A stretch of DNA of 64,000 nt from NCBI RefSeq assembly GCF_006351965.1, contig NZ_CP040932.1, positions 2,170,001-2,234,000 of the forward strand, written 5' to 3'. Below, piece after piece: positions 33,564-38,006 of this stretch. Both the position numbers and the translations under genes were made by a program. How positions within the stretch are numbered: the first letter of the stretch is position 1; each line of letters starts with the position of its first letter. The notes under the pieces are model-generated. The model worked only from the letters and a program-made list of their open reading frames with translations. It made no database searches and was not told the origin of the DNA. This stretch comes from Oceanicola sp. D3. Lineage in GTDB: Bacteria; Pseudomonadota; Alphaproteobacteria; Rhodobacterales; Rhodobacteraceae.

Positions 33564-34853
33564 ATGGGGGCCGAGCAGATGGCTGACAGCACGCGGCGTG
33601 TCGTGATTACCGGGTTGGGGATGGTTACTCCGCTGGCCTGTGGTGTTGAAGAGACGTGGAGCCGGATTTTGGCGGGCCAGTCCGGGGCGGGTACGATCAC
33701 CCGTTTTGACGCCTCGCACCTTGCCACCACCTATGCCTGCGAGATCCCGATGGGCGATGGCTCGGATGGCAGCTTCAACGCTGATGACTGGATGGCGCCG
33801 AAGGACCGCCGGAAGGTGGATGACTTCATTCTCTACGGCGTTGCTGCCGCGATTCAGGCGGTTGAGGATGCAGGCTGGACGCCCGAGGACGAAGAGAGCC
33901 TGCTGCGCACTGGCGTGATGATTGGCTCCGGCATTGGCGGGCTGAACTCGATTGCCGATACCGCCGTGCTCCTCAAGGAGCGCGGGCCGCGGCGGGTGAG
34001 CCCGTTCTTCATTCCGGGCGCGCTGATCAACTTGGTGAGCGGGCAGGTGAGCATCAAATACGGGTTCAAGGGGCCGAACCACGCTGTGGTGACGGCCTGC
34101 TCCACGGGTGCTCATGCGATTGGCGATGCCGCGCGGCTGATTCAGTGGGGCGATGCCGATGTGATGGTGGCGGGCGGCACCGAGAGTCCGATCAGCGAGA
34201 TCGGGATTGCCGGGTTCAACGCCTGCAAGGCGCTTTCCACCAAGCGGGGCGATAGCCCAGAGACGGCGAGCCGCCCCTATGACGAGGACCGTGACGGGTT
34301 TGTCATGGGTGAGGGTGCTGGCATCGTTGTGCTGGAAGAATACGAGCACGCCAAGGCGCGGGGCGCGAAGATCTATGCCGAGGTGATCGGCTATGGCCTG
34401 AGCGGCGATGCCTATCATATCACCGCCCCGAGCGAGGATGGCGAAGGCGGCTATCGGGCGATGGAAGCGGCGATCAACCGGGCCGGGATCAGCCCGGCGG
34501 AGATTGACTACATCAACGCGCACGGCACCTCGACCATGGCCGACACCATTGAACTTGGCGCGGTGGAGCGGATGATGGGCGATGCTGCGAGCAAGGCGAC
34601 CATGTCATCCACCAAATCCGCGATCGGCCACCTGCTGGGAGCGGCGGGCTCGGTGGAGGCGATCTTTGCGACGCTGGCGATCCGCGATCAGGTGGCGCCG
34701 CCGACGATCAACCTCGACAACCCTGCGGTGACGCCCAAGCTGAACCTCGCGGCCAATGCCAAGCATGAGCGCGAAATCGACGTGGCGCTCTCTAACAGCT
34801 TTGGTTTTGGCGGCACCAACGCCTGCCTTATCCTGCGGAAAGTTAACGACTGA
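33564..34853 (+). CDS. fabF: 3-oxoacyl-ACP synthase II
   Basis: The protein has 429 residues. RRVVITGLGMVTPLACGVEE starts the synthase; the catalytic triad is in VTACSTGAHAIG (Cys), INAHGTSTMAD (His) and KSAIGHLLGAAGS (His). It condenses malonyl-ACP with growing acyl-ACP, including the step that makes cis-vaccenate. Two starts are possible: ATG at 33564, or 33579 five residues later (MADSTRR); the latter fits homologues slightly better. The stop codon overlaps the mltG start by one base. Confidence 0.97.
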   Translation: MGAEQMADSTRRVVITGLGMVTPLACGVEETWSRILAGQSGAGTITRFDASHLATTYACEIPMGDGSDGSFNADDWMAPKDRRKVDDFILYGVAAAIQAVEDAGWTPEDEESLLRTGVMIGSGIGGLNSIADTAVLLKERGPRRVSPFFIPGALINLVSGQVSIKYGFKGPNHAVVTACSTGAHAIGDAARLIQWGDADVMVAGGTESPISEIGIAGFNACKALSTKRGDSPETASRPYDEDRDGFVMGEGAGIVVLEEYEHAKARGAKIYAEVIGYGLSGDAYHITAPSEDGEGGYRAMEAAINRAGISPAEIDYINAHGTSTMADTIELGAVERMMGDAASKATMSSTKSAIGHLLGAAGSVEAIFATLAIRDQVAPPTINLDNPAVTPKLNLAANAKHEREIDVALSNSFGFGGTNACLILRKVND

Positions 34854-36010
34854 TGTGGCGTTCATTGGCCTCCAATGGCCTGACAATCATCATCGTCTTG
34901 ATGATCGGTCTCGCCGTGGGCGTGACCTGGGCTCAGAAGCAATACACCGGCCCCGGCCCGTTGGCAGAGGCGATCTGTTTGCAGGTCCGGCCCGGCTCGA
35001 ACATGGGCGCGGTCAGTGACGAGCTTGTGGAGCGCGGCGCTGTCAGCAATGGCATGATCTTTCGGATGGGTGCGGAATATACCGACCGGACGCAACTGCT
35101 GAAGGCGGGCTCTTTCCTCGTGCCGGAGGCCTCCTCGATGCAGGAGATCGTCGAGAGCATCACCACGGCGGGCCGCAGCACCTGCGGGACCGAGGTGAAC
35201 TATCGCATTGGCGTGTTGCGGGCCGAGCTGGTGATGCGCGAGCTGGACCCGGCGACGCAGGAATACGTTGATGTGGCCAAGTACAACCCCGCCGAAGAGG
35301 AAGCCCCTGCCGAATACGTAGAGGGCAGCGCTGGCGCCGATGTGCGGTTTCGGGTGACGCTGGCCGAGGGGGTGACGAGCTGGCAGGTGGTTGAGAGCCT
35401 GAAGGTCTGGGGCTTCATGGAGGGCGAAACCGAAGTGCCCGCCGAGGGCAGCCTTGCGCCAGACAGCTACGAGGTGCGGCGGGGGTCTGACATGGCCGCG
35501 CTGATCGAGCGGATGCAGACGGCGCAGCAGTCGATCCTTGCAGAAGCGTGGGCGGAGCGGGCGGAGGGCTTGCCCTATGACAGCCCGGAAGAGGCGCTGA
35601 TTATGGCCTCGATCGTCGAGAAGGAGACCGGGGTTTCGGAGGAGCGGGGGCAGGTTGCCAGCGTTTTCGTCAACCGGCTTGAGCGGGGCATGAAACTGCA
35701 GACGGACCCGACGGTGATTTATGGTGTGACGCAGGGCCGGGGCGCGTTGGGCCGGGGCCTGCGGCAGAGCGAACTGCGGGCGCGGACGGATTACAACACC
35801 TATGTGATTGACGGGTTGCCGCCGACACCGATTGCAAACCCGGGCCGGGCGAGCATTGAGGCGGCGCTGAACCCGGATACCACGCCCTACATCTTTTTCG
35901 TGGCCGATGGCACCGGCGGCCACGCTTTTGCCGAGACGCTGGAAGAGCACAACGAGAACGTCGCCCGCTGGCGCGAAATCGAGGCGGAGCGGGCCGAGGG
36001 CAACAATTAG
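34853..36010 (+). CDS. mltG: Endolytic murein transglycosylase MltG
   Basis: The protein has 385 residues. One N-terminal membrane helix (about 9-27) is followed by a LysM-like region and the YceG domain: IMASIVEKETGVSEERGQVA with the catalytic Glu, then VFVNRLERGMKLQTDPTVIY and the ending PPTPIANPGRASIEAALNP. MltG cuts nascent glycan strands at the inner membrane and sets chain length. The start codon overlaps the fabF stop (TGATG), so translation is coupled. The GTA cluster begins about 270 bp downstream. Confidence 0.96.
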   Translation: MWRSLASNGLTIIIVLMIGLAVGVTWAQKQYTGPGPLAEAICLQVRPGSNMGAVSDELVERGAVSNGMIFRMGAEYTDRTQLLKAGSFLVPEASSMQEIVESITTAGRSTCGTEVNYRIGVLRAELVMRELDPATQEYVDVAKYNPAEEEAPAEYVEGSAGADVRFRVTLAEGVTSWQVVESLKVWGFMEGETEVPAEGSLAPDSYEVRRGSDMAALIERMQTAQQSILAEAWAERAEGLPYDSPEEALIMASIVEKETGVSEERGQVASVFVNRLERGMKLQTDPTVIYGVTQGRGALGRGLRQSELRARTDYNTYVIDGLPPTPIANPGRASIEAALNPDTTPYIFFVADGTGGHAFAETLEEHNENVARWREIEAERAEGNN

Positions 36011-36054
36011 GACCGGCTGCTGAGGCCTTCTGGGGCACGGGAAAATGCTTACAT

Positions 36055-36085
36055 AAAGAGAGGTCCGGCGGTTGCCGGGCCCTCT
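36055..36085 (+). terminator. Hairpin after mltG
   Basis: A long stem (AGAGGTCCGGC with GCCGGGCCCTCT, one bulged base, GGTT loop) lies about 45 bases after the mltG stop codon. No T-run follows, so it may be a weak terminator or an mRNA end-stabiliser. Confidence 0.45.
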
Positions 36086-36156
36086 AGCCCCAAAGGGGAT
36101 GGTTAAGAAACCCCTAACGAAACAACCGCTTAGCCCGCGCAACTCGCCGAATTGGC

Positions 36157-36185
36157 TTGACTCTGCGAACGGTCTCCTCTATAGG
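36157..36185 (+). promoter_or_regulatory. Candidate sigma70-like promoter upstream of the GTA cluster
   Basis: TTGACT (36157-36162), exactly 17 bases, then TATAGG (36180-36185). This is the best promoter match in the mltG-g1 gap. The predicted transcription start is near 36192, only about 20 bases before a terminator-like hairpin and about 90 bases before g1. Confidence 0.6.
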
Positions 36186-36210
36186 TTGTGACACGATGAG
36201 AGAGGTGGGC

Positions 36211-36243
36211 GCGGCAACCCTTGTGGGGGTGGGCCGCTTTTTT
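36211..36243 (+). terminator. Terminator-like hairpin in the GTA leader
   Basis: GCGGC (36211-36215) pairs with GCCGC (36233-36237), and inside it ACCC (36217-36220) with GGGT (36227-36230); six T residues follow at 36238-36243. It lies between the candidate promoter and g1, so it could end a short RNA of about 50 bases or attenuate GTA transcription. Confidence 0.65.
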
Positions 36244-36280
36244 ATTGCCGGTTACGCAGGACACCGGCCTCTAGCGAGAC

Positions 36281-36679
36281 ATGACCATGGATGATCGACC
36301 CGACCGCGAGGGCGGGGCCGCAGGCGGCATGCTTCCTGCGGCGGAGCAGCTTTTGGCCGACGGCGCGGGGGCGCTGGTGGCGAGCATCGCGCGCAAGGGC
36401 GGAGGCACGTCACGGCGCGCCAGAAGCGGGCTGGCGGAAATCCGTCAGCTTCGCCGGGTGCTTCTGGCGGCCTATCAGGAGAGAGAACTTGTTGAGGAAC
36501 ACCAGACCCGAGGCGGCGACAGCCGCGCCAGCGGGCGATCCGGCAATGGAGCGCCCGATGGAGACAAGTCAGACGGCGTGCTCGACCTCGACGCCGCAAG
36601 GGATGAGATCGGGCGCCGCCTGGCTCGCCTCCGCGCCGCAGGCGATGCAGGAGAGCTTTCTGGAGAGCCTGAGCCCTGA
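36281..36679 (+). CDS. GTA g1-like protein, probable small terminase subunit
   Basis: The protein has 132 residues, highly charged. A helical N-terminal part (AEQLLADGAGALVASIARKG) and an Arg-rich helix pair (SGLAEIRQLRRVLLAAYQER) are followed by a disordered Gly/Ser-rich linker and a helix (LDLDAARDEIGRRLARLRAAG). Its place directly before the large terminase, overlapping it by 77 bases in another frame, is that of RcGTA g1 (TerS), which recruits DNA to the large terminase. Sequence similarity alone would not prove this. The starts at 36281 and 36287 are equally possible. Confidence 0.65.
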   Translation: MTMDDRPDREGGAAGGMLPAAEQLLADGAGALVASIARKGGGTSRRARSGLAEIRQLRRVLLAAYQERELVEEHQTRGGDSRASGRSGNGAPDGDKSDGVLDLDAARDEIGRRLARLRAAGDAGELSGEPEP

Positions 36680-37949
36680 GGCGCTGGCGGCCCTGCCGTG
36701 GCTCTTTGAGTTTTGGGCGTTGCCACATCAGCTGCCGCCCGAGGGCGACTGGCGGGCGTGGGTGATCCTCGGTGGTCGCGGGGCAGGCAAGACGCGGGCG
36801 GGCGCGGAGTGGGTGCGCGCGCAGGTGGAGGGCTCTGGCCCGTTTGACGAGGGGCGATGCCGCCGGATGGCGCTGGTGGGCGAGACCATCGACCAGGCCC
36901 GCGAGGTGATGGTGTTTGGCGAGAGCGGCATTTTGGCCTGCTCGCCCCCTGACCGGCGCCCTGAGTGGAAGGCCGGGCGAAAGCAGTTGGAGTGGCCCAA
37001 CGGCGCGGTGGCGCAGCTTTTCTCGGCCCATGATCCGGAGGCGCTGCGGGGGCCGCAGTTTGACGGGGCGTGGGTGGATGAGCTGGCGAAGTGGAAGAAG
37101 GCGCAGGAGGCGTGGGACATGCTCCAGTTCGGCCTTCGGCTGGGCGACAGCCCCCGGATGTGCGTGACGACGACGCCGCGCAAGCAGGCGTTGCTGCGAG
37201 ACCTGCTGGAGCGGCAGAGCACGGTTGTGACCCGTGCGGGCACGGAAGCGAACCGAGCCTGGCTTGCCCCGGCCTTCCTTGAAGAGGTCAGGGCGCGGTA
37301 CGGCGGCACCCGGCTGGGCCGGCAGGAGCTGGATGGCGTGATGCTGGATGACGTTGAGGGCGCGTTGTGGCGGCATGAGGCGCTTGAGGCGGCGCGGCTG
37401 GGCGAGGTGCCCGAGCTTGACCGGATCGTGGTGGCGGTGGACCCGCCGGTGACCGGGCATAAGGGATCGGACGCCTGCGGAATTATCGTCGCCGGGCTGG
37501 AAGCGGCTGGCTCGGAGCCCAAGGACTGGCGGGCGGTGGTGCTGGAGGATGCCTCGGTGCAGGCCGCGTCGCCGCTGGACTGGGCCGGCGCCGCGCTGAG
37601 GGCCGCCGAGCGCTATGGCGCGGATAGGGTGGTGGCCGAGGTGAACCAGGGCGGCGACCTTGTTGAAACGCTGATGCGGCAGATTGATCCGACGGTGGCC
37701 TTCCGCGCAGTGCGGGCCTCGCGCGGGAAGGCGGCGCGGGCCGAGCCGGTGGCGGCGCTTTATGAGCAGGGGCGGGTGCGGCATGTGGCCGGGCTGACCG
37801 AGTTGGAAGACGAGATGGGCCGAATGACGGCGCAGGGCTATCAGGGCAGCGGCTCGCCGGACCGGGTGGATGCGCTTGTTTGGGCGCTGACCGAGCTGAT
37901 CCTCGACCCGGCGGCCACATGGCGGCGGCCAAAGATGCGGAGCCTCTAG
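36603..37949 (+). CDS. GTA large terminase subunit (g2)
   Basis: About 448 residues from ATG 36603. ESLSPEALAALPWLFEFWAL precedes the ATPase core: Walker A ILGGRGAGKTRAGAEW, Walker B-like DGAWVDELAKW, and the C-terminal nuclease domain with VVAVDPPVTG and VDALVWALTEL. It pumps DNA into the prohead and cuts it at headful length. The start is uncertain: ATG 36558 has a better Shine-Dalgarno (GGAG, 6 bases away), and 36645 is also in frame. The frame stays open back to 36291, but that part is the g1 coding region read in a shifted frame. Confidence 0.93.
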   Translation: MRSGAAWLASAPQAMQESFLESLSPEALAALPWLFEFWALPHQLPPEGDWRAWVILGGRGAGKTRAGAEWVRAQVEGSGPFDEGRCRRMALVGETIDQAREVMVFGESGILACSPPDRRPEWKAGRKQLEWPNGAVAQLFSAHDPEALRGPQFDGAWVDELAKWKKAQEAWDMLQFGLRLGDSPRMCVTTTPRKQALLRDLLERQSTVVTRAGTEANRAWLAPAFLEEVRARYGGTRLGRQELDGVMLDDVEGALWRHEALEAARLGEVPELDRIVVAVDPPVTGHKGSDACGIIVAGLEAAGSEPKDWRAVVLEDASVQAASPLDWAGAALRAAERYGADRVVAEVNQGGDLVETLMRQIDPTVAFRAVRASRGKAARAEPVAALYEQGRVRHVAGLTELEDEMGRMTAQGYQGSGSPDRVDALVWALTELILDPAATWRRPKMRSL

Positions 37950-37956
37950 GCGGGGC

Positions 37957-37985
37957 GGATGGTGGGCAGATTGCCCACCCTACGG
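37957..37985. repeat. Dispersed palindromic repeat, copy 3 of 3, between GTA g2 and g3
   Basis: GGTGGGC (37961-37967), an AGATT loop and GCCCACC (37973-37979), then CTACGG. It starts 8 bases after the terminase stop codon and ends 21 bases before the portal start, within the GTA operon. The 29 bases match copy 2 exactly. Confidence 0.9.
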
Positions 37986-38006
37986 ACAATCGAAAAGGAG
38001 AGACGG

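Follow-up and report, generated by a model that had tools for sequence, protein, structure and literature searches.

RcGTA is produced by only a small fraction of the cells in a population, and GafA has so far been taken as an activator of transcription initiation. For the Bartonella GTA (BaGTA), a paper on anti-termination reportedly exists. Among the described systems that most resemble the locus analysed here, the Caulobacter crescentus system of PgtaT, GafY/GafZ and terGTA also belongs to a GTA cluster and has a similar regulator, the similarity being between GafA-C and Caulobacter GafZ, and PgtaT likewise has an element in the -35/-10 spacer and a terminator to be bypassed (PMC11150451). 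Anti-termination by GafZ from this spacer element was shown in Caulobacter, and according to the authors GafZ resembles known anti-terminators neither in sequence nor in structure; they raise the possibility of an as yet unrecognised anti-termination activity of GafA (PMC11150451). The AlpA/alpBCDE system of Pseudomonas aeruginosa likewise has a promoter, a spacer element and an intrinsic terminator ahead of the first gene; its terminator, tB, at which AlpA acts as anti-terminator, begins 54 bases from the start, and its lysis genes are on in a subset of cells (PMC7969949). No GTA is involved in that system, the terminator at our locus lies nearer the promoter (at about +20), and AlpA is not known as a relative of GafA; the likeness is one of the order of parts. 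Lambdoid PR' promoters with their Q proteins, as described for 21Q, contain a succession of -35, spacer binding element, -10, -10-like element and downstream terminators for which our locus offers counterparts, the spacer and -10-like elements as candidates; 21Q has a QBE made of a direct repeat, and a single CGNNCG is found here (PMC6606751). The RcGTA promoter of Rhodobacter capsulatus has the same position relative to g1 and the same regulator family, and the action of GafA is described there as activation (PMC6363796, PMC9638019), by way of the omega subunit in PMC9638019. The words 'terminator', 'termination', 'hairpin' and 'stem-loop' are absent from the main text of PMC6363796 and PMC9638019, and a leader terminator did not come up when RcGTA papers in the open-access literature were searched by term. 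Terminators close to a promoter, of the sort seen at late promoters, are known as a kind; the putative member presented here is without description in the open-access literature searched.

The window (the whole 64,000-nucleotide stretch of Oceanicola sp. D3 DNA that was analysed) was confirmed to carry an RcGTA-type cluster, with Terminase_6N/6C, Phage_portal, Phage_capsid and GTA_TIM in one rightward cluster that follows fabF (ketoacyl synthase) and mltG (YceG). Coordinates are window positions and features are on the plus strand unless stated otherwise. The first gene of the operon, g1 (36281-36679), was assigned to the small-terminase position because it lies beside TerL, its product giving no Pfam match, and g2 (36603-37949), encoding the large terminase TerL (Terminase_6N, _6C), was given a start codon of our choice inside a longer frame; the closest named TerL was that of Vannielia litorea (93% identical). 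The mltG stop (36010) and the g1 ATG (36281) are separated by a gap of 270 bases, which holds a promoter, a hairpin and a T-run. Also in this gap, between mltG and the GTA promoter, lies a leftward terminator-like hairpin on the minus strand at 36057-36084 (AGAGGGCCCGGCAACCGCCGGACCTCT, then TTTATG). Searches against Rfam gave no match within 34000-38000 up to E 1. When the cluster itself was scanned for internal terminators, many matches were obtained at coding positions and these were not interpretable.

The promoter (36157-36185) consists of a near-consensus -35 element, TTGACT (36157-36162), a 17-base spacer and a weak -10 element, TATAGG (36180-36185). The preliminary description had placed these two hexamers, the six-T run ending at 36243, the ATG at 36196 and a 32-codon frame running to 36294 correctly; its wording of a near-ideal promoter flatters the -10 element, as TATAGG agrees with TATAAT at four of six positions and lacks the final T. 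Among 79 aligned loci the -35 element averaged 1.81 bits, and the -10 element took the family form TA[GT]A with its last two bases free. The two elements were 17 bases apart in 78/78 scored loci, a figure limited by a promoter picker that slightly favoured this spacing. Within the spacer, the motif CGNNCG (36166-36171) is a candidate GafA (ZBE-like) binding element, its four defined bases (C36166, G36167, C36170 and G36171) reaching 1.35-1.83 bits in the 79 aligned loci, and its location is that of the GafZ element of Caulobacter (PMC11150451). Transcription is predicted to start at 36192-36193, and a terminated RNA would then be about 50 bases long. At the predicted start is a -10-like hexamer, CACGAT (36192-36197; family form CANGMT near +1 to +6), which is a candidate sigma-dependent pause element and averaged 1.63 bits, with C in 77/79, A in 77/79, G in 79/79 and T in 79/79 loci. 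The hexamer begins 11 or 12 bases past the start of the -10 element in 76/78 loci, so that its placement has a little play, unlike the spacing of the core promoter elements. By comparison with these elements, the 54 bases upstream at 36097-36150 averaged only 0.27 bits (79 loci). A CtrA-like box, TTAAGAAACCCCTAAC, was observed at 36103-36118, upstream of the GTA promoter; such a box occurred -54 to -57 from the -35 element in 11/83 loci, and anywhere within 120 bases in 13/83, against 1/1660 mononucleotide shuffles used as a control. CtrA binding is reported as absent from the R. capsulatus GTA promoter (PMC6363796).

A purine-rich conserved leader (36198-36210; mean 1.35 bits) leads into the terminator, which comprises the 27-base hairpin GCGGC-A-ACCCT-TGTG-GGGGT-GG-GCCGC (36211-36237; -16.1 kcal/mol) and the T-run TTTTTT (36238-36243; mean 1.68 bits), the latter ending 37 bases upstream of g1. 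Between the T-run and g1, inspection of relatives drew attention to a second inverted repeat, GCCGGT...ACCGGC (36247-36268), whose position is taken in several other genera by a different yet self-complementary sequence, CTCGTGC...GCATGAG. The window alone made a weak case for a promoter-terminator module. A simple motif scan of the window listed neither the promoter nor the hairpin, and the folding energy of the hairpin was unremarkable against shuffles (z -0.6 to -1.6). A looser scan of both strands of the 64-kb window returned two promoter-like sites (at least 5/6 and at least 4/6), the GTA promoter and one other, both with a hairpin-plus-T match downstream, and there were 84 such matches on the plus strand of the window. 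The case for the module rests on relatives.

For this comparison 85 loci were assembled, made up of 80 named loci chosen for their close TerL and five genus loci (the window's own included); two further genus loci judged to be duplicates of the named records L002 and L003 were omitted. A promoter could be placed in 83/85 loci, the exceptions being L068 and L077. In 79/83 of these a hairpin and T-run stood no more than 95 bases from the -10 element, against 39/415 dinucleotide shuffles, which bears out the conservation of the hairpin in related GTA loci that the preliminary description had proposed to examine; the four loci with a promoter and no terminator were L015, L040, L046 and L073. In the 79 loci the T-run starts at a median of 55 bases past the -10 element (sd 3.4). 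That close relatives might lack the hairpin and promoter had been named as an observation that would speak against a leader switch; no such loss was seen, as both were kept in 7/7 genus genomes, two of them examined through L002 and L003. As a control, a terminator was found in 1/24 gafA leaders scanned, these being the 24 of 31 gafA loci that matched the anchoring pattern.

The module was then sought with a covariance model (R1), which matched 294/390 genomes at E<=0.01 and 269/390 at E<=1e-5, the latter counted by hand from the match listing, in a sample drawn entirely from the window's family; at E<=0.01 the matches covered 124/139 genera. Outside the family, a class-wide sample gave 0/380 genomes at E<=1e-5, and the 14/380 that matched at E<=0.01, all at 28.4 bits or less, are background from ordinary terminators. 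The window's genome holds a single copy of the module (64.9 bits, against 17.5 for the next match). Among the best 30 module matches, which were fetched, 30/30 lay just upstream of a GTA TerL on the same strand, and two exact consensus patterns retrieved 47 distinct viral-contig loci; in 46/47 a TerL relative follows directly downstream.

Covariation in the hairpin was assessed on two alignments. In the model-fitted alignment (A3), which is biased towards its own structure, 96.0% of cells were paired and two-sided change was seen in 8/9 pairs, with 107 two-sided cells against 31.4 +/- 3.7 in shuffled and 15-36 in slid versions. In the structure-blind MAFFT alignment (A1), 86.8% of cells were paired and two-sided change was seen in 7/9 pairs, with 72 two-sided cells against 28.8 +/- 3.8 in shuffled and 13-29 in slid versions; on two of five measures the A1 result was also reached by shuffles, namely the number of pairs (41/500) and the number of pair types (14/500). 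RNAalifold applied to the plain MAFFT leader alignment returned no MFE structure and a weak centroid. By comparison with relatives, and not by folding energy, the predicted module is clearly more than a chance arrangement.

The regulator that would act on this module is encoded outside the window, at G000:C1:1977821, by an intact gafA of 378 residues. Its C-terminal domain DUF6456 (PF20057) spans residues 232-368 (E 1.1e-62), and PF20057 was present in 388/390 family genomes. A structure model of GafA (mean pLDDT 78.8) gave middling resemblances, at the N-terminus to DnaA domain IV (Z 8.1, rmsd 2.0, 69 residues) and at the C-terminus to sigma region 4 (Z 8.0, rmsd 2.6, 80 residues), and a Foldseek search against the PDB gave no match for GafA at E<=0.001. 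DnaA-like and sigma-like domains have been described for GafA and GafZ (PMC11150451, PMC9638019), and a resemblance to sigma region 4 was reported for 21Q (PMC6606751). GafA-C of R. capsulatus binds the -35/-10/start region, 75-125 bases before g1 (PMC9638019, PMC6363796); transposed to the present locus, this interval corresponds to 36156-36206, the front half of the module. In the gafA promoters (L090 720-760, L125-L154), GAACGG often lies inside the CtrA box, and CGAACGG occurs in the GTA spacer, so that GAACGG/CGAACGG is a possible shared GafA site. Another candidate for such a site, TATATGCTGGAGA, found in the genome's own gafA promoter and similar to the GTA +1 region, was rejected, as it was absent from the other gafA promoters inspected.

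We propose, with a probability of roughly 0.6, that 36157-36243 is a late-type GTA control module of the lambda pR'/AlpA type with GafA as its anti-terminator. In its sequence anatomy, with an intrinsic terminator placed between a sigma-70 promoter and the first gene, the locus fits a Q/AlpA-type module. RNA polymerase of the sigma-70 type would start near 36192, the -10-like hexamer near +1 to +6 being placed to hold it briefly, and the intrinsic terminator, which spans roughly +20 to +52, would stop most transcripts as RNAs of about 50 bases. In cells that make GafA, GafA at the promoter would help to recruit polymerase and would load onto it as a processive anti-terminator, and polymerase carrying GafA would pass the hairpin and transcribe the GTA genes. 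CGNNCG and CANGMT stand where the binding element and the -10-like element required by Q proteins are located (PMC6606751). The Caulobacter -35 element is degenerate; when PgtaT was given a near-consensus -35, it no longer depended on GafYZ but had about one sixth of the activity (PMC11150451). Since the -35 element at our locus is already near consensus, a second gate is to be expected, and the terminator would be that gate. In Caulobacter the terminator was mapped to a repeat array that follows the first gene, whereas the terminator here lies some 20-50 bases from the start and before g1. This difference counts against the proposal, as does the reported action of GafA through the omega subunit (PMC9638019), which needs no anti-termination. 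No printed report of anti-termination by GafA or of a short leader RNA was found in the open-access literature searched. The conserved leader terminator offers a concrete target for the anti-termination role that has been suggested for GafA, and if the proposal is true, the GTAs of the family would share their logic of control with phage late genes and with the AlpA lysis switch. A broader reading, which we advance tentatively and at somewhat less than even odds, is that in most Rhodobacteraceae the GTA decision is taken at elongation, with terminated RNAs of about 50 bases made continually in all cells from a promoter with a near-consensus -35, and paused polymerase converted to a termination-resistant form only in cells that cross a threshold of GafA. 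GafA and GafZ would then add another structural class to the Q-like anti-terminators, one that in GafA is fused to its own activator domain.

The preliminary description had explained the same elements by attenuation, with translation of the 32-codon frame (36196-36294) allowing read-through. Its order of promoter and terminator was upheld, being conserved with covariation, and a switch held off by termination is likely on the sequence evidence; the translational part was not upheld. A ribosome on this frame, which exists and spans the hairpin, would block the hairpin from forming, and an ATG right after the predicted start in 48/76 loci would make a leaderless reading possible. At the position of the window's ATG, however, 67 of the 76 anchored loci have CTG or CTA (CTG 48, CTA 19, ATG 9). 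The adjacent candidate start codon reads ATG in 48 loci, AAG in 18, ACG in 7 and AGG in 3, and an ATG is hence absent there in 28/76. These counts refer to 76/83 loci, L015, L021, L040 and L046 having been dropped and L010, L027 and L063 not having been anchored. Measured to the T-run, the distance is spread over all three frames (35/23/18), and the longest frames in the leader range from 10 to 155 codons overall and from 10 to 32 within the genus, some genus frames having just 10-16 codons. The 32-codon frame was judged to be no gene, and because the leader frame is unconserved, ribosome-coupled read-through is unlikely as a shared mechanism; of the explanations weighed here it is the one we hold least probable. 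Scarcely more probable is that a trans-acting regulatory RNA of about 50 bases is the promoter's main product and that the GTA genes are read from another start; a conserved 5' end followed by a terminator is the shape of a bacterial small RNA, but the GTA start of R. capsulatus was placed in the same promoter interval by RNA-seq (PMC6363796), and the module is tied to the GTA TerL, is single copy and has no Rfam match. A small RNA would also leave the conserved promoter-spacer DNA unexplained; the spacer DNA and the first transcribed bases are conserved like the hairpin, a pattern more in keeping with a site for loading a protein than with a peptide or small RNA.

The remaining two explanations concern the hairpin region itself. 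It might merely terminate the upstream fabF-mltG operon or insulate against read-through, and a scan from the mltG stop to g1 showed it to be the one rightward intrinsic terminator there; but it stands downstream of the GTA promoter at the near-fixed distance given above, a spacing for which an insulator has no need, a further scan match lies upstream of the -35 element in 27/83 loci (8 at -17 kcal/mol or better), and the bases from promoter to hairpin are conserved as well as the hairpin, all of which makes this explanation unlikely, if less so than the other rivals to the proposal. It might instead be an element of the read-through RNA, in which termination is weak and an outer helix protects the 5' end of the mRNA or acts directly on polymerase in the manner of HK022 put RNA. 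Within 36198-36249, bases of the leader could pair in most relatives with bases past the T-run in a 7-bp outer helix, for which 91.7% of A1 cells were paired against 49-64% when slid, but shuffled columns paired at 89.3% and two-sided changes were few (12, against 6-19 in slid versions), so that the predicted pairing is weakly supported. The outer helix, moreover, can form only once polymerase is beyond the T-run, and conservation of the T-run counts against such an element, to which we give the same very small probability as to the small RNA.

The proposed control by GafA at a leader terminator was further viewed in the light of relatives in which the module is lacking. R1 gave no match at E<=0.01 in 96/390 family genomes, and 19 TerL-bearing genomes of this subset were inspected, L174 (genome G238) having been excluded from the no-match set on account of a model match at E 9.4e-9. 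Hairpin and T-run were still present in 5/19 (L157, L160, L161, L162 and L166), and no terminator was found in the expected interval in 14/19 at the main threshold (L155, L156, L158, L159, L163-L165 and L167-L173) or in 13/19 at a looser one. At least two terminator-less genomes (L171, L173) kept a good promoter. The terminator is absent from 14/19 although GafA is present in 388/390, which indicates that it is dispensable in some lineages; judged by these comparisons, certain lineages have lost the putative switch or never had it. A GCTRRA core resembling the hexamer region occurred in 10/19 of the no-match intervals, lying past the leader in two (L161, L162), and the +1 element may therefore matter apart from the terminator. 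GafA scored lower where the module was lacking, with a median -log10 E of 51.7 (23 genomes) against 60.5 (64 genomes), in a comparison that ignored kinship, covered genomes G007-G100 only and omitted seven with weak module matches.

Outside the family, a TerL relative was detected at E<=1e-70 in 89/380 genomes, some of which may be phages. In 26 upstream intervals from these genomes, terminator matches were scattered, and of five inspected only L216 had promoter-like bases before the terminator. In that locus, about 489 bases before the TerL match and upstream of the terminase genes, promoter-like bases are followed by a strong terminator (-26.9 kcal/mol), and L216 is possibly an independent case of the promoter-terminator layout.
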